Shown here: positions 12,971-33,912 of the stretch, one piece after another | How the letters are laid out: each line of letters opens with the position of its first letter | How positions within the stretch are numbered: the first letter of the stretch is position 1 | Assembly: GCF_014773545.1 (NCBI RefSeq) | Contig: NZ_SDDV01000001.1 | Span: 62,001-126,000, forward strand | Length of the DNA stretch: 64,000 nt | Direction: 5' to 3' | Origin: Hydrogenophaga sp. | GTDB taxonomy: Bacteria > Pseudomonadota > Gammaproteobacteria > Burkholderiales > Burkholderiaceae_C | The notes under the pieces: model-generated | What the model saw: only the letters and a program-made list of their open reading frames with translations | Databases searched by the model: none | Told to the model about the DNA's origin: nothing | Translations under genes and position numbers: made by a program

Positions 12971-16017
<3,047 letters not shown>

Positions 16018-20718: not shown

Positions 20719-22140
20719 ATGGCCGTTAAAACCTACAACGCCGGTGTCAAGGAGTATCGCCAGACCTACTGGATGCCCGAGTACGCCCCGCTGGACACCG
20801 ACATTCTGGCGGTGTTCAAAATCACGCCGCAAGCCGGCGTGGATCGGGAGGAGGCCGCTGCTGCGGTGGCCGCTGAATCGTCCACCGGAACCTGGACCAC
20901 GGTGTGGACCGACCTGCTGACCGACATGGACTATTACAAAGGCCGTGCCTACCGCATTGAGGACGTGCCGGGCGACGATAGTTGCTTTTATGCCTTCATC
21001 GCCTACCCGATCGACCTGTTCGAAGAAGGTTCGGTGGTCAACGTGTTCACCTCGCTGGTGGGCAACGTGTTCGGCTTCAAGGCGGTGCGCGCGCTGCGTC
21101 TGGAAGATGTGCGCTTCCCGATTGCTTACATCAAGACCTGCGGCGGTCCGCCGCACGGCATCCAGGTCGAGCGCGACCTGATGAACAAGTACGGGCGTCC
21201 GCTGCTGGGCTGCACCATCAAGCCCAAGCTGGGCTTGTCGGCCAAGAACTACGGGCGTGCGGTGTATGAATGTCTGCGCGGCGGACTGGATTTCACCAAG
21301 GACGACGAAAACATCAACAGCCAGCCCTTTATGCGTTGGCGCCAGCGCTTCGACTTCGTGCAAGAGGCCACCTTGAAGGCCGAAGTCGAAACCGGCGAGC
21401 GCAAAGGCCACTACCTGAACGTGACCGCACCGACGCCTGAAGAGATGTACAAGCGCGCCGAGTACGCCAAGGAAATTGGCGCACCCATCATCATGCACGA
21501 CTACATCACCGGCGGCTTCTGTGCCAACACGGGCTTGGCCAACTGGTGCCGCGACAACGGCATGCTGCTGCACATTCACCGCGCCATGCACGCGGTGATC
21601 GACCGCAACCCGCAGCACGGCATTCACTTTCGCGTATTGACCAAAATTCTGCGTCTCTCGGGAGGCGACCACTTGCACACCGGCACCGTGGTCGGCAAGC
21701 TCGAAGGCGATCGCGCCTCCACCCTGGGCTGGATCGACTTGTTGCGCGAATCCTTTGTGCCGGAAGACCGCTCGCGCGGCATCTTCTTCGATCAAGATTG
21801 GGGCTCTATGCCTGGCGTCTTTGCTGTGGCCTCGGGTGGTATTCATGTCTGGCACATGCCGGCGCTGGTCAGCATCTTCGGCGACGATTCGGTGCTGCAG
21901 TTTGGTGGCGGCACACTCGGCCACCCCTGGGGCAACGCCGCTGGTGCCTGCGCCAACCGCGTGGCCTTGGAAGCCTGCGTGCAAGCGCGCAACGAAGGCC
22001 GTCAGTTGGAGAAAGAGGGCAAGGACATTCTTGGCAACGCTGCTGCGAGCAGCCCCGAACTCAAGATCGCCATGGAGACCTGGAAAGAGATCAAGTTTGA
22101 GTTCGACACCGTGGACAAGCTCGATCTGTCCCACAAGTGA
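20719..22140 (+). CDS. cbbL: RuBisCO large subunit, form IA
   Basis: The catalytic subunit of ribulose-1,5-bisphosphate carboxylase/oxygenase, 473 aa. The carbamylated lysine motif [11 protein letters not shown], the loop 6 motif [12 protein letters not shown] and the active-site segment [11 protein letters not shown] are all present. The start [20 protein letters not shown] is typical of carboxysomal form IA enzymes. It begins the cso operon; cbbS follows after 48 bases. The protein is packed inside the alpha-carboxysome through CsoS2. Confidence 0.99.
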
Positions 22141-22188
22141 TAGAGACTCACCGGCCCATTGCAACCCTCTCTTGTTAAGGAAACCGAC

Positions 22189-22515
22189 ATGGCTGTCCAA
22201 GCGTATAAATCGTCCCAGAAGTACGAAACTTTCTCCTACCTGCCGGCCATGACGGCCGAACAGGTGCGCCGTCAAATCGCCTACTCGATCAGCCAGGGCT
22301 GGAACCCGGCGGTCGAGCACACCGAAAAGGGCACCGCTGCCACCAGCAACTTCTGGTACATGTGGAAGTTGCCGCTGTTCGGTGAGCAATCGGTGGATGC
22401 CGTGCTGGCTGAACTGGATGCCTGCCATCGCGAGTTCCCGACCCACCTGGTGCGCGTCGTGGCTTACGACAACTACTCGCAAAGCCAGGGCATGTCCTTC
22501 GTCGTTTATCGCTGA
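22189..22515 (+). CDS. cbbS: RuBisCO small subunit, form IA
   Basis: A 108-aa small subunit that caps the L8 core. Recognisable segments are [47 protein letters not shown] and [22 protein letters not shown] 22189 has an AAGG ribosome-binding site; an upstream in-frame start at 22159 is less likely. Together with CbbL it forms the carboxysome cargo. Confidence 0.98.
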
Positions 22516-22532
22516 GCCACAGACGGCAGCAA

Positions 22533-22557
22533 GCCGCCACCCGCCACCCGCCACCCG
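22533..22557 (+). repeat. CCGCCAC triplicate between cbbS and csoS2
   Basis: Three direct copies of the 7-mer CCGCCAC stand in the 58-base cbbS-csoS2 spacer. They may form part of the processing or translation-tuning region that sets RuBisCO to CsoS2 ratios. This function is inferred. Confidence 0.5.
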
Positions 22558-22573
22558 CGCAAGAGGTAAAAAA

Positions 22574-24892
22574 ATGACCACAGCCGATGCACCTGTCGAC
22601 CACCTCACCCTGTCAGGACGGGCGCTGGCCCTGATGCGGCGCCAGGCGCTGGCCATGCGCGGCAAGACGGGTGTGGTCAAGGCGGCGCATGTGCGCGCGT
22701 CGGCTGCGCTGCCAGCGCGCGCGCTCACTCCCAGTGCGCTTCGATCGGAAGCAGCCTGCGCTGTGGTGGCGGCGGCATCGACGCCATCTGTTGTGCTGCT
22801 GCGGCCAACGGAAAATGCGGCGCGGCTGCGCCGTCAGGCCTTGAGCCAGTCGGGCAAGTCGGCCTTGCCGCTGCCATCCACGGCGGCGCGTTCGCTGCCC
22901 GGGCGTCCACAGCCGGTGTCGCTGCCGCTGCCGGTGAGTTCCTGCGACTGTGCGGGCCGTGGCAGCGCAGTCTGTGGCCAGACGCAGGTCGAGCAGGCAG
23001 CGTCGGCGTCGGCGTCGCCAGCCCCTGCGCAAGCTGCTGCGCCCGCGCCGCAGACCCGAACCATCCGGGCGCTGGCACGCGCGCGCCGCGCTGCCATGTC
23101 CAGCGACGGCAAGATCGGTCAACGGCGTGTGGCGCAGGCCACCAAGTTGGTGGCGGTGCTGCCGCAGCAAGACTGGCAATTGGCAATCGACAAAGGTGCC
23201 ACCGGGCGTCAGGTGGCGATGCAGCGGCGTCTGGTGCGCGCCGTGGCGGGTGCCAGCCAAACGACTTCTGAATCAACCCGACCCAGCGGGCGCGTGCGCA
23301 GCAAACAGCCAGCCGCTGCCGTGCCGCCCAAAGTGGGGCAGGGCACGACGCTGTCGGGGCAAACCGTCAGTGGCAGCCTGGTCGACGCCAGCAGCAAGGT
23401 CACGGGCAACGAAAGCGGGCTTTGCCGCAACGTCACCGGCACCGAATACCTGGGGGCAGAGCCGTTCGAGACGATCTGCGGCACGCGGCCCGAAGCGGGT
23501 CCGGCCAAGGTCGGCGTCAGCAGCACCTGGCGTGAGCAAAAAATCACCGGCACCGAAGTCGGCCGCAGTGCTGCAGTCACCGGTGACGAAGTCGGTGCCT
23601 GTCGCGGCATCACCGGCACCGAATACCTGGCGCGCGAGCATTTCGAGGCGGTCTGCGCGAGCGTACCCGAGCCCGCGCCGCGCAAAGTCAGCGTGATGTC
23701 GTCGCACGGCGGCCAGCGCGTCTCGGGCAGCGAGCTTGGTCTTTCCAGCAAAGTCACGGGTGACGAGGCCGGCGCCACACGACTACTCACCGGCAGTCAG
23801 TACATGCATATCGATGGCGCGCGCGGCGTCAGCGTCGGCAAGGTCGCCGTGTTGCAAACCGGCGCCGGCAGCACCGTTACCGGCACGGAGATGGGCCGCA
23901 GCCCAAAGCTCACCGGTGACGATCGCGGCGCCTGCCGTTCCGTCACCGGTACCGAATACATAAGCACCCAGCAACTGCAAGCGGTGTGCGAATCCAGCAC
24001 GCCAGTGGCGCCGATCGCCAAGGTCGGTCAAGACCAGACCTGGCGCGGCCAGAGCATCACCGGCAGCCACGTCGGCCGTGCCGACAAAGTAACCGGCGAC
24101 GAATACGGCGCCTGCGCCCCGATCAGCGGCACGCCCTATATCGGCCGGGGCCAGTACCAGGCTTTTTGTTTGCCAACCGAACAGGCCGGGCAGCAGGCGC
24201 GGCTGCGCACCGAGGCGATGATTCCAGCCGCTGCCGTCACCGGCGATCGTCCCGGTGCGGGCGGCTCGGCGATGACCGGCGACGCACGCGGCGCCTGCGG
24301 CTCGGTCAGTGGAACCCCTTATGTCGGACGCGACAACGCGCCAACACAGTGCCCGCCCAGCAGCAGCCGCTACGTCACGCGAGCACGCCCACCGCAGCCC
24401 AGGGTGCAGATGCCGACGCCGCAAGATTTCAGCATTCAATCGCCGGCGCGTCAGGCGCGCGAGCGCGGCGCCGTGACCGGTTCTGTCTTTAGCAACCAGC
24501 GCATCACCGGCCCGGTCAACAAAGCCGGCGGCCTGATCACCGGCACACCCGAGTTTCGCCACAGCGAAGCGATGCCTGCTGCGAGCGCCGCGCCGATCGA
24601 GCTGCCGGTGGCGGCTGCCAGACGCCTCACCGGTGAAGGCAGCCAGGCCGGCTCGCGCGTCAGCGGCGATGCCTGGCAGTCTTCGGGGCGCGTCACCGGC
24701 ACCGAAGGCGCGTCTTCCTTGCGGCGCAATCCTTCGCAAAAGGGCCAGGCGCGCGGTCCCGCCATGGGCATGAACGCCCAGCAGTTTCGTGACGTCGAGC
24801 GCAGCGAACAGCCGCAAAGCCGCATCACCGGCTCATCGGGCAACACCGCCAAGGGCGCGGCTGTGACCTTGTCGGGCGGCGCGCGCGGCTAA
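22574..24892 (+). CDS. csoS2: Carboxysome assembly scaffold CsoS2
   Basis: A 772-aa intrinsically disordered scaffold linking RuBisCO to the shell. The N-terminal region (1-210) has four basic helical RuBisCO-binding repeats (RALALMRRQALAMRGKTG, LRRQALSQSGKSAL, LARARRAAMSSDGKIG, MQRRLVRAVAG). The middle (about 250-600) has six repeats built on VTGDExGAC...VTGTEY with paired cysteines, the third lacking them. The C-terminal region has ITGP/ITGTPE/VSGD elements and ends in the conserved peptide RITGSSGNTAKGAAVTLSGG. AGAGG precedes ATG 22574. A possible -1 frameshift site is at 24162-24168 (see findings). Confidence 0.97.
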   Translation: MTTADAPVDHLTLSGRALALMRRQALAMRGKTGVVKAAHVRASAALPARALTPSALRSEAACAVVAAASTPSVVLLRPTENAARLRRQALSQSGKSALPLPSTAARSLPGRPQPVSLPLPVSSCDCAGRGSAVCGQTQVEQAASASASPAPAQAAAPAPQTRTIRALARARRAAMSSDGKIGQRRVAQATKLVAVLPQQDWQLAIDKGATGRQVAMQRRLVRAVAGASQTTSESTRPSGRVRSKQPAAAVPPKVGQGTTLSGQTVSGSLVDASSKVTGNESGLCRNVTGTEYLGAEPFETICGTRPEAGPAKVGVSSTWREQKITGTEVGRSAAVTGDEVGACRGITGTEYLAREHFEAVCASVPEPAPRKVSVMSSHGGQRVSGSELGLSSKVTGDEAGATRLLTGSQYMHIDGARGVSVGKVAVLQTGAGSTVTGTEMGRSPKLTGDDRGACRSVTGTEYISTQQLQAVCESSTPVAPIAKVGQDQTWRGQSITGSHVGRADKVTGDEYGACAPISGTPYIGRGQYQAFCLPTEQAGQQARLRTEAMIPAAAVTGDRPGAGGSAMTGDARGACGSVSGTPYVGRDNAPTQCPPSSSRYVTRARPPQPRVQMPTPQDFSIQSPARQARERGAVTGSVFSNQRITGPVNKAGGLITGTPEFRHSEAMPAASAAPIELPVAAARRLTGEGSQAGSRVSGDAWQSSGRVTGTEGASSLRRNPSQKGQARGPAMGMNAQQFRDVERSEQPQSRITGSSGNTAKGAAVTLSGGARG

Positions 24893-24899
24893 GGGGACT

Positions 24900-26390
24900 G
24901 TGGTGAATACGTACAAACGCCTTGCCGCCCTGCGCCGTGGTGCTGTCCTGCGCCCGTCGGCAGGCCTGGACAACCCGGCCTGCGTCATGGGCTCCGAGCA
25001 GGCGTGCGAGCACACGCTGGTCGATCGAGACCTCAACCAGCGCCTGTTCACCTATGAGATGCAGGTGCGCGGTCGCTTTGCCCCGATCATCGAGCTGCTC
25101 AAGGACTTGTCGGCGATGCAACACGAAGCCGATTTCATCGCCCGCGCGCAGCAATTGGCACAGCAGCGCCTGGGCTACAGCCTGCCGGAGCCGTTGCTCG
25201 GCGTGGCCTGGGTCAATGGTCTGGATTTGCGTGCGCTGCATTCGCATTGCATTTTTCGCAGCTTCAAAGCGTGCATAGAGCACGCCGAGGCTGATCAGGC
25301 GCCCTGGATCGAGCGCATGGCTATCGATCAGGCTTTTTTGCACGCCTGCGCTTATCACACGGTCGACGTCAGTCCCTGCTCGGACGGCCGCTTGCAGGGC
25401 CTGCTGCCCTTTGTCTTGCGCATGGCTTCGCACGATTCGATTGGCGTCAAAGCGTATGCGGGCGCGCTGTTCGATATCGAACTCGACCTGGCCGACTGGA
25501 CCCGGCGCGAACTCGAGCGACTCAGCGGCGCCTTGCCGGGAGCGCAAGACGGTGACTACCTGAAAATCGCGGTCTATCACTACAGCACGTCCGACCCCTG
25601 CTTGCAAGGCTGCGCGGCGCACGGCAGCAGCGACGAGCAGGCTATGCAGGCTGCGGCCACGCGCTTGCAGGGTTTGCGTGCCGCCGTTGACAACACCTTT
25701 GGCCAGGGGGCGGCACCGCAGACGCTGTTGATCGGCGTGGACACCGACACCGACGCGATTTTGGTCCATCTGCCTGATGAGCATTCAGCGCACAGCGCGC
25801 TGCGCAGCGTCGACAATGTGCAGGTGTTTCGCGAGACGCTGGGCCTGCCGGCGCCGCAGGCGCGCCAGGCGATTGCGCGCGCGGTCGAGGCGGCAGCCGG
25901 CGGCCACAGCCTGCGCCCGGGCATGCGCCATCTGGTCGAACGCCTGCTGGAGGCCAATCTGTCGCAGATCGAATACGTGATTCGACACCACGCCGGGCGC
26001 TACACCATCATTGGCCACAACGAGCGCCTGATCTGTGCCGGCGAAGCCGTGAGCGAAGTGCAGTTGCGCAACAAGTTTTATTTTGCCCATCTTGACACCG
26101 TCGAAGAAGGTGCGGCCGACATGGACGTCGGGATCAAGATTTTCAACGCGCTCAACGTCAGCCGCGGCCTGCCGGTGCCGGTGCTGGTGCATTTCAATTA
26201 TCGCGCCCGGGTGCCGGGCGCACGCGAGCGTGCCTTGCAGCGCTGCTGGCGCGTCAAAGCCGCGATCGAGTCGCGTTACGCCGCCTTGCATGCGCAGGGT
26301 TTGCTGCACTGCCAGATGGCATTGAGTGACCAAGACGGCAGCGAACGCTGCACCCTGATCGACGCGTCGCAAGATGTGTCGGCGCATTGA
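24900..26390 (+). CDS. csoSCA: Carboxysome shell carbonic anhydrase (epsilon/beta-like)
   Basis: Also called CsoS3. It converts bicarbonate to CO2 beside RuBisCO. The 496-aa protein has the helical N-terminal domain, then the catalytic domain with Zn ligands Cys160 (PCSDGR), His227 and Cys238 (YHYSTSDPCLQGC), with Asp162 and Arg164 as the catalytic dyad. A degenerate C-terminal domain follows (RHHAGRYTIIGHNERLI, FAHLDTVEEGAADMDVGIKI). GTG 24900 or GTG 24903 is the start, after an AAGGGGA ribosome-binding site that overlaps the end of csoS2. Confidence 0.96.
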   Translation: MVNTYKRLAALRRGAVLRPSAGLDNPACVMGSEQACEHTLVDRDLNQRLFTYEMQVRGRFAPIIELLKDLSAMQHEADFIARAQQLAQQRLGYSLPEPLLGVAWVNGLDLRALHSHCIFRSFKACIEHAEADQAPWIERMAIDQAFLHACAYHTVDVSPCSDGRLQGLLPFVLRMASHDSIGVKAYAGALFDIELDLADWTRRELERLSGALPGAQDGDYLKIAVYHYSTSDPCLQGCAAHGSSDEQAMQAAATRLQGLRAAVDNTFGQGAAPQTLLIGVDTDTDAILVHLPDEHSAHSALRSVDNVQVFRETLGLPAPQARQAIARAVEAAAGGHSLRPGMRHLVERLLEANLSQIEYVIRHHAGRYTIIGHNERLICAGEAVSEVQLRNKFYFAHLDTVEEGAADMDVGIKIFNALNVSRGLPVPVLVHFNYRARVPGARERALQRCWRVKAAIESRYAALHAQGLLHCQMALSDQDGSERCTLIDASQDVSAH

Positions 26391-26415
26391 TGCCCGCCAC
26401 GCGCAAGGTGTTTGT

Positions 26416-26673
26416 ATGAAGATCATGAGAGTCGAGAAAACGCTGGTGTCGACCAACCGCATCGATGCCTTTGGGCACCGGCCGCTGCTGGTGGTGCAGG
26501 AAAAAGCCGGCGCTGCGCGCAGCGTGGCGGTCGATCCGATTGGCTGCGTGCCGGGCGACTGGGTGCTGTGCGTGGGTTCTTCGGCCGCGCGCGACGCTGC
26601 CGGCAGCAGGGACTTTCCGTCCGATCTGACCATCGTCGGCATCATCGACCACTGGCAGGCGGAGCAGAGCTGA
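26416..26673 (+). CDS. csoS4A: Carboxysome shell vertex protein CsoS4A
   Basis: An 85-aa BMC-P (bacterial microcompartment pentamer) protein that closes the icosahedral vertices. Typical are MKIMRVEKTLVSTNRI, LLVVQEKAGAARSVAVDPIG and GDWVLCVGSSAARDAAGS. ATG 26416 is chosen over an upstream frame opening at 26374. Its stop overlaps the csoS4B start (TGATG), so the two are translationally coupled. Confidence 0.95.
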   Translation: MKIMRVEKTLVSTNRIDAFGHRPLLVVQEKAGAARSVAVDPIGCVPGDWVLCVGSSAARDAAGSRDFPSDLTIVGIIDHWQAEQS

Positions 26674-26918
26674 TGGACATCATGCGCGTCAAGGGCGAGC
26701 TGGTGTGTACGCGCCGACTGCCGGGCCTGGGATCGGTGTCGCTGCGGGTGCTGCAGAGTCAGTCGGGTGCGCTGTCGGTGGCCACCGATCCGGTCGGCGC
26801 ACCGATAGGCAAGTGGGTGTTCACCACATCTGGCAGCGCCGCGCGGCTGGCTATGAATACGTCCGATGTTTTTACTGACTTGACGATCTGCGGACTCATC
26901 GATCAATGGGATCAATGA
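26673..26918 (+). CDS. csoS4B: Carboxysome shell vertex protein CsoS4B
   Basis: An 81-aa second BMC-P pentamer, paralogous to CsoS4A: MDIMRVKGELVCTRRLPGLG, ATDPVGAPIGKWVFTTSGSA and DLTICGLIDQW. ATG 26673 overlaps the csoS4A stop codon. The following 97-bp gap is the largest break inside the shell-gene string. Confidence 0.95.
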   Translation: MDIMRVKGELVCTRRLPGLGSVSLRVLQSQSGALSVATDPVGAPIGKWVFTTSGSAARLAMNTSDVFTDLTICGLIDQWDQ

Positions 26919-27015
26919 GCTGCTGCAGGATTTTGGCGGGCGTGCGAAGGCCCTGAAACTTCGAGGCGGATGAGGTTTTGTGTTGTTTTTCTTTTTTTCA
27001 TGAAGGAGTCCTGAA
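26919..27015 (+). promoter_or_regulatory. csoS4B-csoS1 spacer, possible internal promoter or processing site
   Basis: A 97-bp spacer with an unusually T-rich plus strand (26970-27000) inside an otherwise tightly packed operon. The major hexamer gene csoS1 follows with a strong AAGGAG ribosome-binding site at 27003-27008. A separate promoter or RNA processing site would explain the high level of hexamer needed. The mechanism is not visible in the sequence. Confidence 0.3.
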
Positions 27016-27354
27016 ATGGCTGAGAACAGAGGTATTGCCCTGGGCATGATTGAAACGCGCGGTCTGGTGCCCGCCATCGAGGCGGCTGACGCCATGACCA
27101 AAGCGGCCGAGGTGCGGCTGGTCGGTCGTCAGTTCGTCGGCGGCGGCTACGTCACCGTGCTGGTGCGCGGCGAGACCGGCGCCGTCAACGCAGCGGTGCG
27201 CGCCGGTGCCGATGCCTGCGAGCGCGTCGGTGACGGCCTGGTGGCCGCGCACATCATCGCCCGCGTGCACAGCGAGGTCGAAGGCATTTTGCCGAGCGAC
27301 CCGCAGACTGAGGGCGGTGGCCGCGACGCCGAAATCACCATGACCCGCTCCTGA
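27016..27354 (+). CDS. csoS1: Carboxysome major shell hexamer CsoS1
   Basis: A 112-aa single BMC-H (hexamer) domain protein that tiles the shell facets. It shows [54 protein letters not shown] and [10 protein letters not shown]. There is a short acidic tail. Only one CsoS1 hexamer gene is present here, whereas many cso operons carry two or three tandem copies. Extra copies may lie elsewhere in the genome. Confidence 0.96.
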
Positions 27355-27372
27355 ACCCCGAACGCTGCGCCC

Positions 27373-27816
27373 ATGAACGCCGATCCGCGCACCCTGGGCT
27401 GGCTCGGTCGCGCCCTCACGCACGAACTCGGCGCTGTGCAGCAGTATCTGGCGCAGGCGGTGTTGGCCGACCTGTGGGGCGAGCAGGCGCTGGCGCAGCA
27501 ACTGCGACGTGAAGCAGACGAAGAACTGCAGCACGCGCAGCGGCTGATGGAGCGCCTGCTGCTGTTGGGCGTGGCACCGGCTGCGGGCCCTTTGGCGCCG
27601 GCGCGGCTGGGCCGACAGGTCGATGAACTGCTGCGCGCCAACCGGCAACTGGAGCTGGAAGCGGTGCGGCTGTACCAGGAGGCCTTGATGCACGCGCGCC
27701 GTGTGCGCGATGTCGATGGCGAGGCTTTGATGCAGGCGCTGCTGCAAGATGAAATAGCGCATCTGGCCGCCGTCGAGACGCTGCTTGTCAATGTTAACGG
27801 AGCACATCAGTCATGA
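27373..27816 (+). CDS. Ferritin-like (bacterioferritin-related) protein of the cso operon
   Basis: A 147-aa four-helix protein with ferritin-type metal-ligand spacing: HELGAVQQYL, READEELQHAQRL, ELEAVRLYQEAL and DEIAHLAAVETLL. Such genes are common in alpha-carboxysome clusters, but their function is not settled; redox or iron protection of the system is a guess. Its stop overlaps the start of the next gene (ATGA). Confidence 0.85.
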   Translation: MNADPRTLGWLGRALTHELGAVQQYLAQAVLADLWGEQALAQQLRREADEELQHAQRLMERLLLLGVAPAAGPLAPARLGRQVDELLRANRQLELEAVRLYQEALMHARRVRDVDGEALMQALLQDEIAHLAAVETLLVNVNGAHQS

Positions 27817-28076
27817 CCGAACTTCCCGCCGGCTGGGAGTCGCGCGGCCAGCAAGCCATCTTGTTTCGCCGCTTCGGCTTTGAGCGCTACAGCCAGACGC
27901 GCGACTTCGTCGACGCGCTGTCGGCCTTGGCGGCAGCGGGTGCAGCGCATCCGCAAAACATCAACTTTGGCGCCACCTACGTCAACGTTACCTTGGATCC
28001 GAGTGCCACGGGCGCGCTCGATGCCGAGTTGGCCGAGCGCATCAACGCCTTGTACCACCGGCCTGCCGGAGCCTGA
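27813..28076 (+). CDS. acRAF, RuBisCO assembly factor (pterin carbinolamine dehydratase-like)
   Basis: An 87-aa protein of the PCD-like fold found in cso operons and shown in the family to assist form IA RuBisCO assembly. Segments include ILFRRFGFERYSQTRDFVDA and NINFGATYVNVTL. The catalytic His pair of true pterin dehydratases (HHP/H pattern) is not intact, consistent with a non-enzymatic chaperone role. Translation is probably coupled to the upstream ferritin-like gene. Confidence 0.9.
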   Translation: MTELPAGWESRGQQAILFRRFGFERYSQTRDFVDALSALAAAGAAHPQNINFGATYVNVTLDPSATGALDAELAERINALYHRPAGA

Positions 28077-28077
28077 C

Positions 28078-28245
28078 ATGGCCACCCAGGTCACGGCAGT
28101 CATCAACCAAAAGGGCGGCGCGGGCAAGACCACGCTGGCGCTGAACCTGGCTGCCGGCCTGGTGCGGCGCGCCCCTGCGGTGTTCCCAGGTGCTGGCGCC
28201 GCCCGCGATATCGAAGTTCTCATCAACGAGGTCATCGCCGCATGA
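28078..28245 (+). pseudogene. mcdA: Remnant of ParA-type carboxysome positioning ATPase (mcdA) with large in-frame deletion
   Basis: The 55-codon frame starts exactly like ParA/McdA ATPases (ATQVTAVINQKGGAGKTTLA with the deviant Walker A motif). After LVRRAP it jumps to what looks like the extreme C-terminus ([15 protein letters not shown]). Normal McdA proteins are about 190-250 aa, so roughly 140-190 codons, including Walker B and the DNA-binding surface, are missing. The stop still overlaps the mcdB ATG (ATGA), so the operon coupling is preserved. It cannot act as an ATPase switch. Confidence 0.8.
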
Positions 28246-28487
28246 GCAACCTGAAAGACAAACTCGTGGCCAGCCTGCGCCAGGCCAAGGCCGGCCCGTC
28301 CGGCGCGACCCAAGAACCGGCGCCGCTCGTTCGCGCCCCCCAGGCGCGCGTCAAACCCCGGCCTGCGGTTGCGATCAGTCCGAGCGACGATTCCAGCGCC
28401 GGCGTGCAAGTGCAGCCGCTGCCCGTGCCGCCGCCACGCAAGCCGTCGAGCGGTTTTGCATTTCCTGATCGGGTCTGGCCCGACTGA
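28242..28487 (+). CDS. mcdB: McdB-like carboxysome positioning adaptor
   Basis: An 81-aa small, basic, Pro- and Gln-rich protein directly after the mcdA remnant. It has a short helical start ([18 protein letters not shown]), a disordered middle (PLPVPPPRK) and the C-terminal aromatic tail FPDRVWPD. An invariant tryptophan near the C-terminus is a hallmark of McdB proteins, which bind carboxysomes and normally recruit McdA. The identification rests on position, size and tail, as McdB sequences are poorly conserved. Confidence 0.7.
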
Positions 28488-28521
28488 AGCCCAGTTCAAC
28501 CGATTTCACCAGGTGCGCACG

Positions 28522-29451
28522 ATGTCCAATCATTTTTCGACCCGCAGCTACACACCGCGTCAGCCCCTTGCAGCGAGTGCCGACCAGCAGCTCGTGACCC
28601 AAGCTCCGCTGCCCTCGCAAACCCTGCTGCGCAGCGCAGCCAACGGCAGCGGCGACGCGCTGGCAGCACAGCGCGTACACAGCCAGCCTTATTACCGCGC
28701 CGTGGCCGACGAGGTCGATCTGTACGAGGCCGCTTACTCGGTGCGCATGCCCATGATGCTCAAGGGTCCGACCGGCTGCGGCAAGACCCGCTTCGTCGAG
28801 TACATGGCCTGGAAGTTGGGTAAACCGCTCGTCACCGTGGCCTGCAACGAAGACATGACCGCCTCCGACCTGGTGGGGCGCTTCTTGCTGGATGCCAACG
28901 GCACGCGCTGGCAGGACGGGCCGCTGGCGCTGGCGGCGCGCTTTGGCGCCATCTGCTACCTGGACGAAGTGGTCGAGGCGCGGCAGGACACCACGGTGGT
29001 GATCCACCCCCTGACCGATGCGCGCCGCGTGCTGCCGCTGGAGAAAAAAGGCGAGCTGCTGCAAGCGCACCCCGACTTCCAGATCGTGATCTCCTACAAC
29101 CCGGGTTACCAGTCGCTGATGAAGGACCTGAAGCAGTCCACCAAGCAGCGTTTCGGCGCGCTGGACTTCAGCTACCCCGAGCACGAGGTCGAGGCCGAAA
29201 TCGTGGCGCACGAGTCCGGCGTCGGTCTGGATGTGGCCAAGAAGCTGGTGCACATCGGCGAGCGTGCGCGCAACCTCAAGGGCCACGGTCTGGACGAAGG
29301 GCTGTCCACCCGCATGCTGATCTACGCCGGTTCGCTGATCGCGCGCGGCGTGCCGACGCTGGCGGCCTGCCGGGTGGCACTGGTGCGCCCGATCACCGAC
29401 GACGCCGACATGCGCGACGCGCTCGATGCGGCCGTGACCACCTACTTCTGA
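28522..29451 (+). CDS. cbbQ: RuBisCO activase subunit CbbQ (MoxR AAA+ ATPase)
   Basis: A 309-aa AAA+ protein that, with CbbO, remodels inhibited RuBisCO. Walker [14 protein letters not shown], Walker [14 protein letters not shown], sensor-like ISYNPGYQ and the arginine-finger region [11 protein letters not shown] are visible. A roughly 60-residue N-terminal extension ([15 protein letters not shown]) precedes the core; such an extension may aid carboxysome targeting. ATG 28522 is chosen. cbbO follows after 31 bases. Confidence 0.95.
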
Positions 29452-29482
29452 AGCCGCGCCTTCACTGCCATCCACCCGTCCC

Positions 29483-31837
29483 ATGGCGATCCACCTCGAC
29501 GACCACCCGGAGCTGCTGGCCGATCTGCCACACGGCGCGCAGGACGTGCTGCGCGCGGCCTGGAGCGAAGCGGCGCGGGTGTTTTCCTCGCGCGGGCTGG
29601 ACAACTACCTCAAGGGCGCGCTGGCGCTGCACCACCTGGGGCGTGGCGAAGAACTGGTGGTCAGCTTCATCCAGACGATGCCCGAGGTGGCGCGCGCCAT
29701 CGGCGAAGACGTGCTGCCCGACATCGTCAACTTCCTGCTCGGCATGGCGTCCAAGACTTCTGGAGCGGTGCTCGCGCTGATCGTGGGCACCGCGCCGCTG
29801 GCGGCCACCCGCCTGGGCGATGAGGAACTCTTTCGCCACTACCTGAACGTGCTGTCCATCGTGCTGGCACAGGTGCCACGCGGCCTGCGTCCGATGCTGG
29901 AGAACCTCGAGCGTCTCCTGTCCCAGCTCACGCTGGGCGGTTTGCGCCGCTGGGTGATGTGGGGGGCGCAGGCTTACAAGTCGGATTTTGAGGGGCAGGC
30001 AAAGTACTTTGCCCTGCACAGCAGCGACGCGCTGTCGGTGCTGCAGCAAGAGCGCAAGGGCACCTTGTTTGTGGATGTGCAGCGCCGCCTGAACATTTAC
30101 CTGCGTGCCATGTGGGGTCGCGACTTTTTCCTGCGCCCCACCGCCGGCGACTACGAAAACCGCGTCGGGCTCAAACCCTACATCGAGCGCTTCTGTGTTC
30201 ACATTGCCGACGCCTACGACGACTACCGCGCCCAGGGCGATGCCACGTCCGAGCAGGACGTGGTGGCCGGTCCCGAGGTCTACCGCGCCGTGGTCAACCA
30301 CTGCGCGGCGCACCTGGTGTTCACGCAGGCGCCGCTGTCGCTGCAGACGCTCAACAGCACGCAAAAGGCGATCATCGAGGTGCTGGAAGACGCCCGGGTG
30401 GAGGCGCTGGCCTGCCGGCAGTTTCCGAACATGCGCGCGGCCTGGCTGGTGTTTCACCCACTGCCCGGTTTGGGTGAACCCCAGACCGTGGGTGATTTGC
30501 TGAACCGTCTTGCGCGTGCCTTGCTTGATCCGGACTCGACCGATTCCCACCCCTGGGTGCAAGAAGGGGTGACGCTGTTCCGGGCCGAGACCGATCTGTC
30601 TGGCAACCAGACCAGTTGGAACATCGGCGTGGCGCTGGCGCACAGCCTGGGCCAGCTGGACTTGCCGGAATTCAACCCGCGCAGCGACGGCCTGCGGGCG
30701 CTCTACCGGGATGACAACCGCACCGTCTGGGCCTCCGAGGCCTACGACGAAGCCGCGGCGCTGGAGGCCACCTGGGCGCCCAAGCAGGTGCGCAAAAAGG
30801 TCAACCTGATGGAGATGGTCAACGAGACCAACAACGAATTCGCCGGCGACGACGCACAGGAAATCTGGGTGTTGCCGACCGAGTTCTATCTCGATCAGGA
30901 GGGCGTTTCCATCAACTCGCTGGAGGGGCGCGAACCCGTGGCCGACCCGGTGCACTACCACGAGTGGGACTACCAGATTCAACTGGAGCGCCCGAGCTGG
31001 GTGACGGTGCTCGAACGCCGTGCGCCGCTGGGCGAGCTGGCGATGATAGAGAAGATCGTGGACGACAACAGGCCGGTGATCTCGCGCCTGAAGTTTCTCA
31101 TCGAGTCCATGATTCCGCAGGGCATGCAACGCATCCGCCGCGTCGAAGACGGCGACGAACTCGACATCAATGCGGCGGTGCGCGCGATGATAGACATTCG
31201 CATGGGCCTGCAGCCCGACACCCGCATCATGATGCGCCACAAGCGCAGCCAGCGCGACCTGGCGGTGCTGCTGCTGCTGGACATGTCCGAGTCGTGCAAC
31301 GACAAAGTGCGCGGGCAAGACAGCAGCATCATGGACTTGTCGCGCGCCGCCACGGTGCTGCTGTCGGACGCGCTGGAGCGCATTGGCGACCCCTTTTCGC
31401 TGCACGGTTTTTGCTCCGACGGGCGGCACGATGTGCACTACCACCGCTTCAAGGACTTTGACCAACCGTTCAACGATCTGGTGAAGGCGCGGCTGGCAGG
31501 CATGAAGGGTGCCTACTCCACCCGCATGGGTGCAGCGCTGCGCCACGCCGGGGCGGCACTCAAGTTGCAGCCCAAGCGCAAGAAGGTGCTGTTCATCATC
31601 ACCGACGGCGAGCCCGCCGACAACGATGTGCGCGACCCGCAGTACCTGCGCTTTGACACCCAGCGCGCGGTTCAAGAGCTGGCGCGTGACGGCATCACCG
31701 TCTATGCGCTGAGCCTGGACCCGCACGCCGACCAGTATGTGGCGCGCATTTTTGGCGCCAAGAACTTCACCGTGATCGACCACGTCGAGCGCCTGCCCGA
31801 GAAGCTGCCGCTGCTCTACCTGGGCCTGACCCGCTGA
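29483..31837 (+). CDS. cbbO: RuBisCO activase adaptor CbbO (von Willebrand factor A)
   Basis: A 784-aa partner of CbbQ that binds RuBisCO. The C-terminal vWA domain (about 600-784) has the MIDAS motif LLLLDMSES, followed by [14 protein letters not shown] and [15 protein letters not shown]. The N-terminal two-thirds is the CbbO-specific helical region. The length is normal. It ends 8 bases before csoS1D. Confidence 0.95.
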
Positions 31838-31845
31838 AGCGAGCC

Positions 31846-32475
31846 ATGGACATCAGCCTGCGCACCTTTGTTTTCATCGACTCGCTGCAGCCGCAGCTGG
31901 CGTCGTACCTGGCCACCTCGTCCCAGGGCTTCTTGCCCATACCGGGCGACGCCTGCCTGTGGATCGAGGTCGCTCCTGGCATGGCGGTGCACCGGCTGTC
32001 GGACATCGCGCTCAAGAAGACCAATGTGCGCATGGGCGAGCAGGTGGTCGAGCGGTCTTTTGGTTCAATGGAAATCCACTACCGCAACCAGAGCGAGGTG
32101 CAGGAGGCCGGGCGCATCATGCTGGAGCAGCTCGGCGCGCAGGTGAGCGACCGCATGGCCTGCCGCATCGCCTGGAGCGAAGTGATCTGCGCCGTCACCC
32201 CCGACCACGCCACGCTGATCAACCGCCAGACGCGCAAGGGCTCGATGCTGCTGCCGGGCAAGAGCATGTTCATTCTGGAAACGGAACCGGCCGGCTACAT
32301 CGTCTACGCTGCCAACGAGGCCGAGAAGGCCGCCCACGTGACCCTGGTCGACGTCAAGGCGTTTGGCAGCTTTGGCCGCCTGACCATGATGGGTACCGAG
32401 GCCGAGGCCGAGGCGGCTGCGCAGGCAGCGCACCGCGCCATTGACCAGCTCAACCGCCAGGCGCGACACGACTGA
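31846..32475 (+). CDS. csoS1D: Carboxysome tandem-BMC trimer shell protein CsoS1D
   Basis: A 209-aa protein of two fused BMC domains (BMC-T) that forms stacked trimers with a gated pore thought to pass larger metabolites. Characteristic segments are [71 protein letters not shown] (here [17 protein letters not shown]), [20 protein letters not shown] and [16 protein letters not shown]. The closeness to CsoS1D of other alpha-carboxysomes is clear. Confidence 0.92.
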
Positions 32476-33588: not shown

Positions 33589-33912
33589 ATGCGAGCCCTG
33601 GAACAGAAAAAACTGCTCACCCTCATCACGGCACACGCCTTCAAGAACATCGTCACCGAGATACTGAAGGCGCGCGAGGTGGGGGGCTACACCGTGGTGG
33701 ATGCCACCGGCGTGGGGGCCTTCGGCGTCCAGTCGGGCGCGCTCGACAGCGACTCCAACGTGCTCATTTACGTCATTCTCTCGGAAGCCCGTCTGAACCT
33801 GCTGCTGGAGGATCTGGATGCGCTGATGACCCGGTCTTACCGGATCAAGGTGATCGTGACAGACATCTCGATCCTGCCCCGCAAGAAGTCGCCCGGGGGC
33901 ACGTCGGGCTAG
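33589..33912 (+). CDS. Carboxysome-associated PII-like protein (CPII/SbtB type)
   Basis: A 107-aa PII-fold protein: KLLTLITAHAFKNIVTEIL, VGGYTVVDATGVGAFGVQSG, DSDSNVLIYVILSE and YRIKVIVTDISIL. The T-loop lacks the uridylylated Tyr of GlnB, as in SbtB and CPII. CPII from Thiomonas, also encoded in a cso operon, binds adenine nucleotides and bicarbonate. This protein probably gates the adjacent SbtA-type transporter. A strong AGGAG ribosome-binding site is at 33577-33581. Confidence 0.9.
   Translation: MRALEQKKLLTLITAHAFKNIVTEILKAREVGGYTVVDATGVGAFGVQSGALDSDSNVLIYVILSEARLNLLLEDLDALMTRSYRIKVIVTDISILPRKKSPGGTSG

Follow-up and report, generated by a model that had tools for sequence, protein, structure and literature searches.

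A 55-codon remnant of the alpha-carboxysome gene mcdA, left by a large in-frame internal deletion, precedes an intact type-1 mcdB

The 55-codon reading frame at 28078-28245 of the analysed stretch of DNA (64 kb, called the window below) was confirmed by sequence comparison as a remnant of alpha-carboxysome mcdA carrying a large in-frame internal deletion, which removed about three quarters of the gene and spared the overlapping mcdB. The reading that we favor, at a probability of roughly 0.6, is that the positioning ATPase has been lost, that McdB is kept for a role independent of McdA, and that the remnant persists by serving the translation of mcdB.

The window comprises bases 62001-126000 of a 331,748-bp contig in a genome of 2.21 Mb (19 contigs, 99.98% complete). 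An alpha-carboxysome locus occupies window positions 20719-31837 in the order cbbL, cbbS, csoS2, csoSCA, csoS4A, csoS4B, csoS1, a ferritin-like gene, acRAF, the 55-codon frame, mcdB, cbbQ and cbbO, so that the genes by which such a locus is recognized (cbbL, cbbS, csoS2, csoSCA, csoS4A/B and csoS1) are found together (Table 1). No Rfam element reached the gathering threshold within 26000-29500.

Table 1. Positions within the window of the mcdA remnant, its parts and the neighboring carboxysome genes
Feature	Positions	Strand	Basis
cbbL, RuBisCO large subunit	20719..22140	+	Pfam/NCBIfam searches
csoSCA, shell carbonic anhydrase	24900..26390	+	Pfam/NCBIfam searches
csoS1, major shell protein	27016..27354	+	NCBIfam BMC_CsoS1 above cut-off
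acRAF, pterin-dehydratase-like RuBisCO assembly factor	27813..28076	+	Pfam Pterin_4a; name by gene order
mcdA remnant, 55 codons	28078..28245	+	Alignment with relatives; Pfam AAA_31/CbiA at residues 4-35
Retained 5′ part, codons 1-35, with Walker A KGGAGKTT as codons 12-19	28078..28182	+	Profile match, McdA positions 2-36
Junction codons 36-37 (Phe-Pro), belonging to neither side	28183..28188	+	Alignment
Retained 3′ part, last 18 codons of mcdA	28189..28242	+	Tail profile test
GAGGT, likely mcdB Shine-Dalgarno, within the mcdA tail	28228..28232	+	Sequence; same-place matches in relatives
mcdB, 81 aa, type-1 N-terminus, C-terminal RVWPD	28242..28487	+	Sequence, type-1 profile
cbbQ, AAA ATPase	28522..29451	+	Named by gene order; GvpN/CobS-like NCBIfam matches below cut-off
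cbbO	29483..31837	+	Named by gene order; no NCBIfam match

The initial annotation had read this frame as mcdA with a large in-frame deletion beside an intact mcdB and had proposed a comparison with the same locus in relatives, and that comparison bears the reading out. In six related loci in which acRAF precedes it (L045-L049 and L019; L047 and L048 are identical across mcdA), mcdA is 211 codons long and ends in an ATGA overlap with the next gene, so that 156 codons (468 bp) are missing in frame from the window gene. The remnant starts 1 bp past the acRAF stop and ends, directly before and overlapping mcdB, in the shared ATGA at 28242-28245; frame and overlap are thus preserved, as had been described. 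Full-length mcdA is also carried by seven further loci of the family (L056-L062), which were recruited with the remnant as query at 1e-8 or better (8/399 genomes, the window's own included).

Both ends of the remnant were assigned to McdA by profile. The N-terminal part scored 44.9 bits on one McdA profile and 41.4 bits on another (both over positions 2-36), the second being the broad McdA profile, on which the best reversed control among 333 frames scored 2.2 bits. The ParA N-terminus and Walker A reported earlier are present residue for residue (INQKGGAGKTT, with the signature lysine of KGGxGKT; Pfam AAA_31 and CbiA). The tail by itself was not reported by the McdA profile searches and was hence scored separately on a profile built from the C-terminal 18 residues of 70 intact McdA proteins, where it obtained 36.2 (leave-one-out quantiles of the intact tails: 5%, -4.3; 25%, 27.8; median, 39.5). 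This score was reached by none of the 94,269 other 18-mers of the window and, among 1041 window peptides preceding a stop, by the remnant tail only (next best, 8.4); the tail is therefore taken to be McdA-derived, and the 15-20 terminal residues that had been estimated come to 18. The full ATPase fold of ~211 residues is absent, the remnant scoring 34.6 bits on NCBIfam ParA_partition (cut-off 180) and an intact relative 196.5 bits.

The same deletion was found in a second sequence. When the 55 residues were searched against about 5.8 billion proteins, a 55-residue protein (P0001) was recovered that is identical to the remnant at 54/55 positions and is encoded on a separate public contig of 35,311 bp. 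The sole difference is Met for Leu at position 22, where Met is found in 5/6 relatives with the acRAF locus and in 3/4 intact proteins of another alignment. A McdB identical to that of the window at 77/81 positions (P0124) belongs to a cluster of 4 sequences whose longest contig is 35,311 bp and, judging by this equal size, P0001 and P0124 would lie on one contig.

An assembly collapse between repeats, which the initial annotation had allowed for and under which the real mcdA would be full length, was ruled out as a candidate on the grounds of P0001 and of the repeat search. The region is GC-rich (67% in the mini-mcdA, 65% in the window), but the second sequence is non-identical, stands on a contig of another size and shows the same junction at the protein level, and exact direct repeats of at least 11 bp were absent from 27601-28900; a collapse is accordingly given next to no weight. 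The suggestion of a strain-specific loss held as to the loss and proved too narrow as to the strain, because at least two non-identical sequences have the deletion. No full-length McdA with the two ends of the window's remnant was present among the 120 matches listed of 1510 homologs of a relative's McdA, the best of those 120 agreeing with the window's end residues at 39/46 positions. As to junction microhomology in the window lineage, repeats of 6-8 bp lie near the edges in 3/4 relatives and none in one, and none of the edge repeats of the four relatives yields the observed 468-bp cut.

The search of the window's own genome for a full-length McdA, another step proposed with the first description, was run with a relative's McdA as query and returned none; five places were matched, namely the remnant and four other ParA-type genes. 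A relocated or second McdA was rejected on this result, with a slight probability left for an mcdA copy that the assembly lacks. It was also considered that another ParA-type ATPase might have taken over as the partner of McdB, so that carboxysomes are still positioned. This is improbable. The type-1, ParA-binding N-terminus of McdB is retained and the genome encodes other ParA-type proteins, the best of which has 205 residues and is related to the ParA_partition family (below the family cut-off), but this protein is just 28% identical to McdA and has no McdB-like neighbor. It is matched at 1e-30 or better in 61/67 genomes of the genus, the window's own among them, against 5/67 for the mcdA N-terminus at 1e-11 or better, with two weaker matches to the latter in carboxysome loci (G018 and G019); because of this difference, the 205-residue ParA is probably a housekeeping protein that was not made for carboxysomes. 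A ParA encoded elsewhere, as had been envisaged, thus finds no McdA-like candidate, the nearest small ParA being ordinary in the genus.

McdB proteins of type 1 are said, in the part of PMC8262871 that was available, to be encoded always downstream of mcdA, and orphan McdB proteins to be of type 2 and to have no charged N-terminus. In H. neapolitanus, the first 20 residues of McdB, lysine 7 above all, bind McdA (PMC12204374, in the portion available). The window McdB has a charged N-terminus of this McdA-binding kind (basic residues at 5, 7, 13 and 16), which scored 33.5 on a type-1 N-terminus profile (leave-one-out over 70 true type-1 proteins: median 30.3, 5% quantile 6.6, minimum -5.6), and a C-terminal tryptophan (FPDRVWPD). 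The lack of a charged N-terminus that marks type 2 is therefore not found in it, and the upstream mcdA that goes with type 1 is present as a remnant only, with no full McdA found in the genome. The dN/dS of McdB was 0.22 and 0.28 against two relatives and 0.24 between two intact systems, values that are rough with dS near 2; by this measure McdB looks maintained.

Remnants of mcdA upstream of a retained type-1 mcdB were found in two further genomes, which widens what the initial annotation could see; both belong to a single genus of a different family within the order (locus L085 in G656 and L102 in G797), and mcdA is intact in L079, L106 and L092 of that genus. In L085, the acRAF-mcdA spacer runs into the last 12-14 mcdA codons. 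In L102, the mcdA start and Walker A are gone and about residues 26-52 and the last 18-19 are both kept, so that two cuts took place. Near-repeats at these junctions, GTGGCG and GGGTTGGCG, were identified by eye from the DNA alignment. The remnants score low on the profile yet above the 2.2 control (6.5 bits in L085; 17.8 and 5.2 bits in L102), and their DNA aligns with the intact mcdA genes of the sister loci. On the type-1 profile, the McdB N-termini scored 29.6 in L085 and 26.1 in L102. Another McdA was not found in G656, where the only ParA matched at 35% and has no McdB-like neighbor, nor in G797, where nothing matched at 1e-10. These two loci are like the window in keeping a type-1 mcdB together with the mcdB ribosome-binding tail behind remnants of mcdA, and unlike it in their cuts and in having lost the Walker A part that the window keeps. 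As read from these alignments, mcdA is excised in at least two lineages with mcdB spared, and the shapes of the cuts indicate that there were probably three separate excisions.

What all three share is the end of mcdA, which includes the ribosome-binding stretch of mcdB: GAGGT in the window, GAGGAGGT in L085 and GAGGAAGT in L102. Matches of at least 5 nt to the Shine-Dalgarno sequence were present in the last mcdA codons in 60/68 loci with an mcdB-mcdA overlap, versus 3/68 at a control position 24 nt upstream. The stretch is weaker in the closest relatives (CACGAGAT), and given this its importance is not uniform. The end of mcdA thus appears to double as the translation start region of mcdB, and it would be for this reason that all three remnants keep it.

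To place these loci, genomes with CsoS2 were collected from the order (44 among 399) and from the class (72 among 369), the window's own genome being included in both, and up to 20 kb were fetched around each CsoS2 gene (43 + 71 loci). With 12 loci (L108-L119) picked for an McdA-like N-terminus and with the window, 127 loci were obtained, of which the 109 having an ORF with the Trp-Pro-Asp McdB end formed the counted set; among the 18 uncounted loci, many are cut by contig ends and two have McdA but no Trp-Pro-Asp McdB. Full McdA, scored within 1500 nt before the mcdB end, was present upstream in 80/109 loci and absent from 29/109 (present in 68/97 when the 12 picked loci are excluded). Remnants of mcdA occurred in 3/29 loci without the full gene, namely the window, L085 and L102; the other 26 gave no mcdA fragment scoring above 3 bits, although a tail standing alone might escape detection. 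Of these 26 orphan McdB proteins, 24 have N-termini that scored 20.9 or less on the type-1 profile (below 10 in 22 cases), and as far as these scores go the 26 loci agree with the orphan type 2 already described; the lowest-scoring true type-1 proteins fall within the range of the orphans, and L196, with an uncertain start, is borderline on this profile. Six cso loci of the order (L069, L076, L080, L087, L094 and L099) hold an orphan mcdB with no mcdA remnant detected, and no McdA-like protein above 37% identity was found elsewhere in those six genomes. L136 (G1181) may hold a further damaged mcdA: near 14892-15800 its mcdA is divided between two frames (210 and 75 bits), unless a sequencing error accounts for the split.

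A Walker A part with a short tail cannot act as McdA, given the ParA fold. After the internal in-frame deletion, which at least two non-identical sequences carry, the product would be unable to dimerize with ATP or to bind the nucleoid, because only these parts are left; on the known ParA mechanism, the spacing of carboxysomes by the McdAB ratchet would then be gone. The intact mcdB would be kept for a carboxysome task that needs no McdA. The anatomy of the locus and the two other genomes suggest that the remnant persists because the Shine-Dalgarno of mcdB lies in its last codons and the start of mcdB overlaps its stop, for which reasons the tail end could not be lost without losing McdB. The retained mcdA start may also hand ribosomes on from acRAF, a coupling that the gene arrangement makes possible.

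The main doubt about this reading concerns McdB, which may have been retained for a function or may simply not have been lost yet. Under plain decay, McdA would have been lost recently, by chance or without payoff, McdB would be without a task and await its own loss, and the remnant would have no role. We consider this rather unlikely, although several observations agree with it: the McdA-binding N-terminus is still on McdB, as after a recent loss; an in-frame cut is a one-in-three chance anyway; and the dN/dS of the remnant N-terminus was 0.27, 0.31 and 0.14 against three relatives versus 0.05 between two intact genes, all based on few changes. It is harder to reconcile with mcdB and its ribosome-binding stretch having been spared in three genomes with different cuts, with mcdB being open in both non-identical sequences, and with the dN/dS of McdB, which is not raised. 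The retention of the type-1 N-terminus would be unexpected if McdA were long gone and McdB worked alone; it agrees with a recent loss or with a different ParA as partner.

A function of the 55-residue peptide itself, such as competition with McdB or with another ParA, is very improbable; nothing was found that speaks for the new role that the initial annotation had suggested for it. The frame is indeed open in two non-identical sequences with 54/55 residues the same, but the single change falls in the retained helix, at Met22, where 5/6 intact relatives have Met, and 1 change in 55 is not clearly fewer than 4 in 81 in McdB; moreover, L085 keeps the tail only, without Walker A. A peptide without Walker B and the dimer interface is not known to have ParA activity.

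The window resembles the alpha-McdAB systems of type 1 (Halothiobacillus neapolitanus and relatives) in its place in the cso locus, gene order, charged McdB N-terminus, C-terminal tryptophan and overlap of mcdB with the mcdA stop. It differs from them in an mcdA shortened from 211 codons to 55, whose product cannot work as an ATPase. With the orphan alpha-McdB of type 2 (PMC8262871, available part) it shares a cso-locus mcdB without an adjoining full mcdA; those orphans have no charged N-terminus, and the 26 orphan loci surveyed yielded no mcdA remnant, whereas the window has both. Alpha-cyanobacteria, which that part of PMC8262871 describes as lacking McdAB, likewise have carboxysomes without McdA, but McdB is absent there and kept in the window. 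Work on S. elongatus, where mcdB mutants fare worse than those of mcdA, has been used to argue that the role of McdB goes beyond McdA, and the same source, in its available part, mentions orphan McdB and treats the function of McdB apart from McdA as an open question of the carboxysome field (PMC8406218). Orphan McdB is thus already known; what is new is a type-1 McdB left behind by repeated mcdA excision, of which no description was found in the literature searched, a set that was available in part and does not take in the main alpha-McdAB survey.

The window, L085 and L102 genomes are exceptions to the rule, stated in the accessible part of PMC8262871, that an mcdA precedes every type-1 mcdB. 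In them, nature has deleted mcdA and left the type-1 partner in place, which makes them test cases for McdB alone, allowing a comparative test of which parts of McdB are still conserved without McdA and a cell test of where carboxysomes are located in a wild type that lacks McdA. The stranded type-1 McdB points to where a function independent of McdA may be sought. Tentatively, and with less confidence than the reading favored above, type-1 McdB may have a conserved job that needs no McdA, with mcdA excised repeatedly and the cut bounded by the end that holds the mcdB ribosome-binding stretch; McdB would then act alone or with a borrowed ParA, in an organization unlike the McdAB ratchet.

Two further features of the locus were noted. 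Against the relative in L109, dS was ~2.2 for acRAF and mcdB and 0.38-0.44 for the mcdA N-terminus, cbbQ and cbbO; this contrast across 27813-28487 versus 28522-31837 may reflect a mosaic locus or small-gene noise. Downstream of cbbO lie a BMC-domain gene (31846-32475; CcmP/CsoS1D-like, scoring under the CcmP cut-off), a gene for an SbtA-type bicarbonate transporter (PF05982, 32523-33515) and, behind the latter, a 107-residue ORF without an NCBIfam match (33589-33912), which we take to be possibly SbtB.
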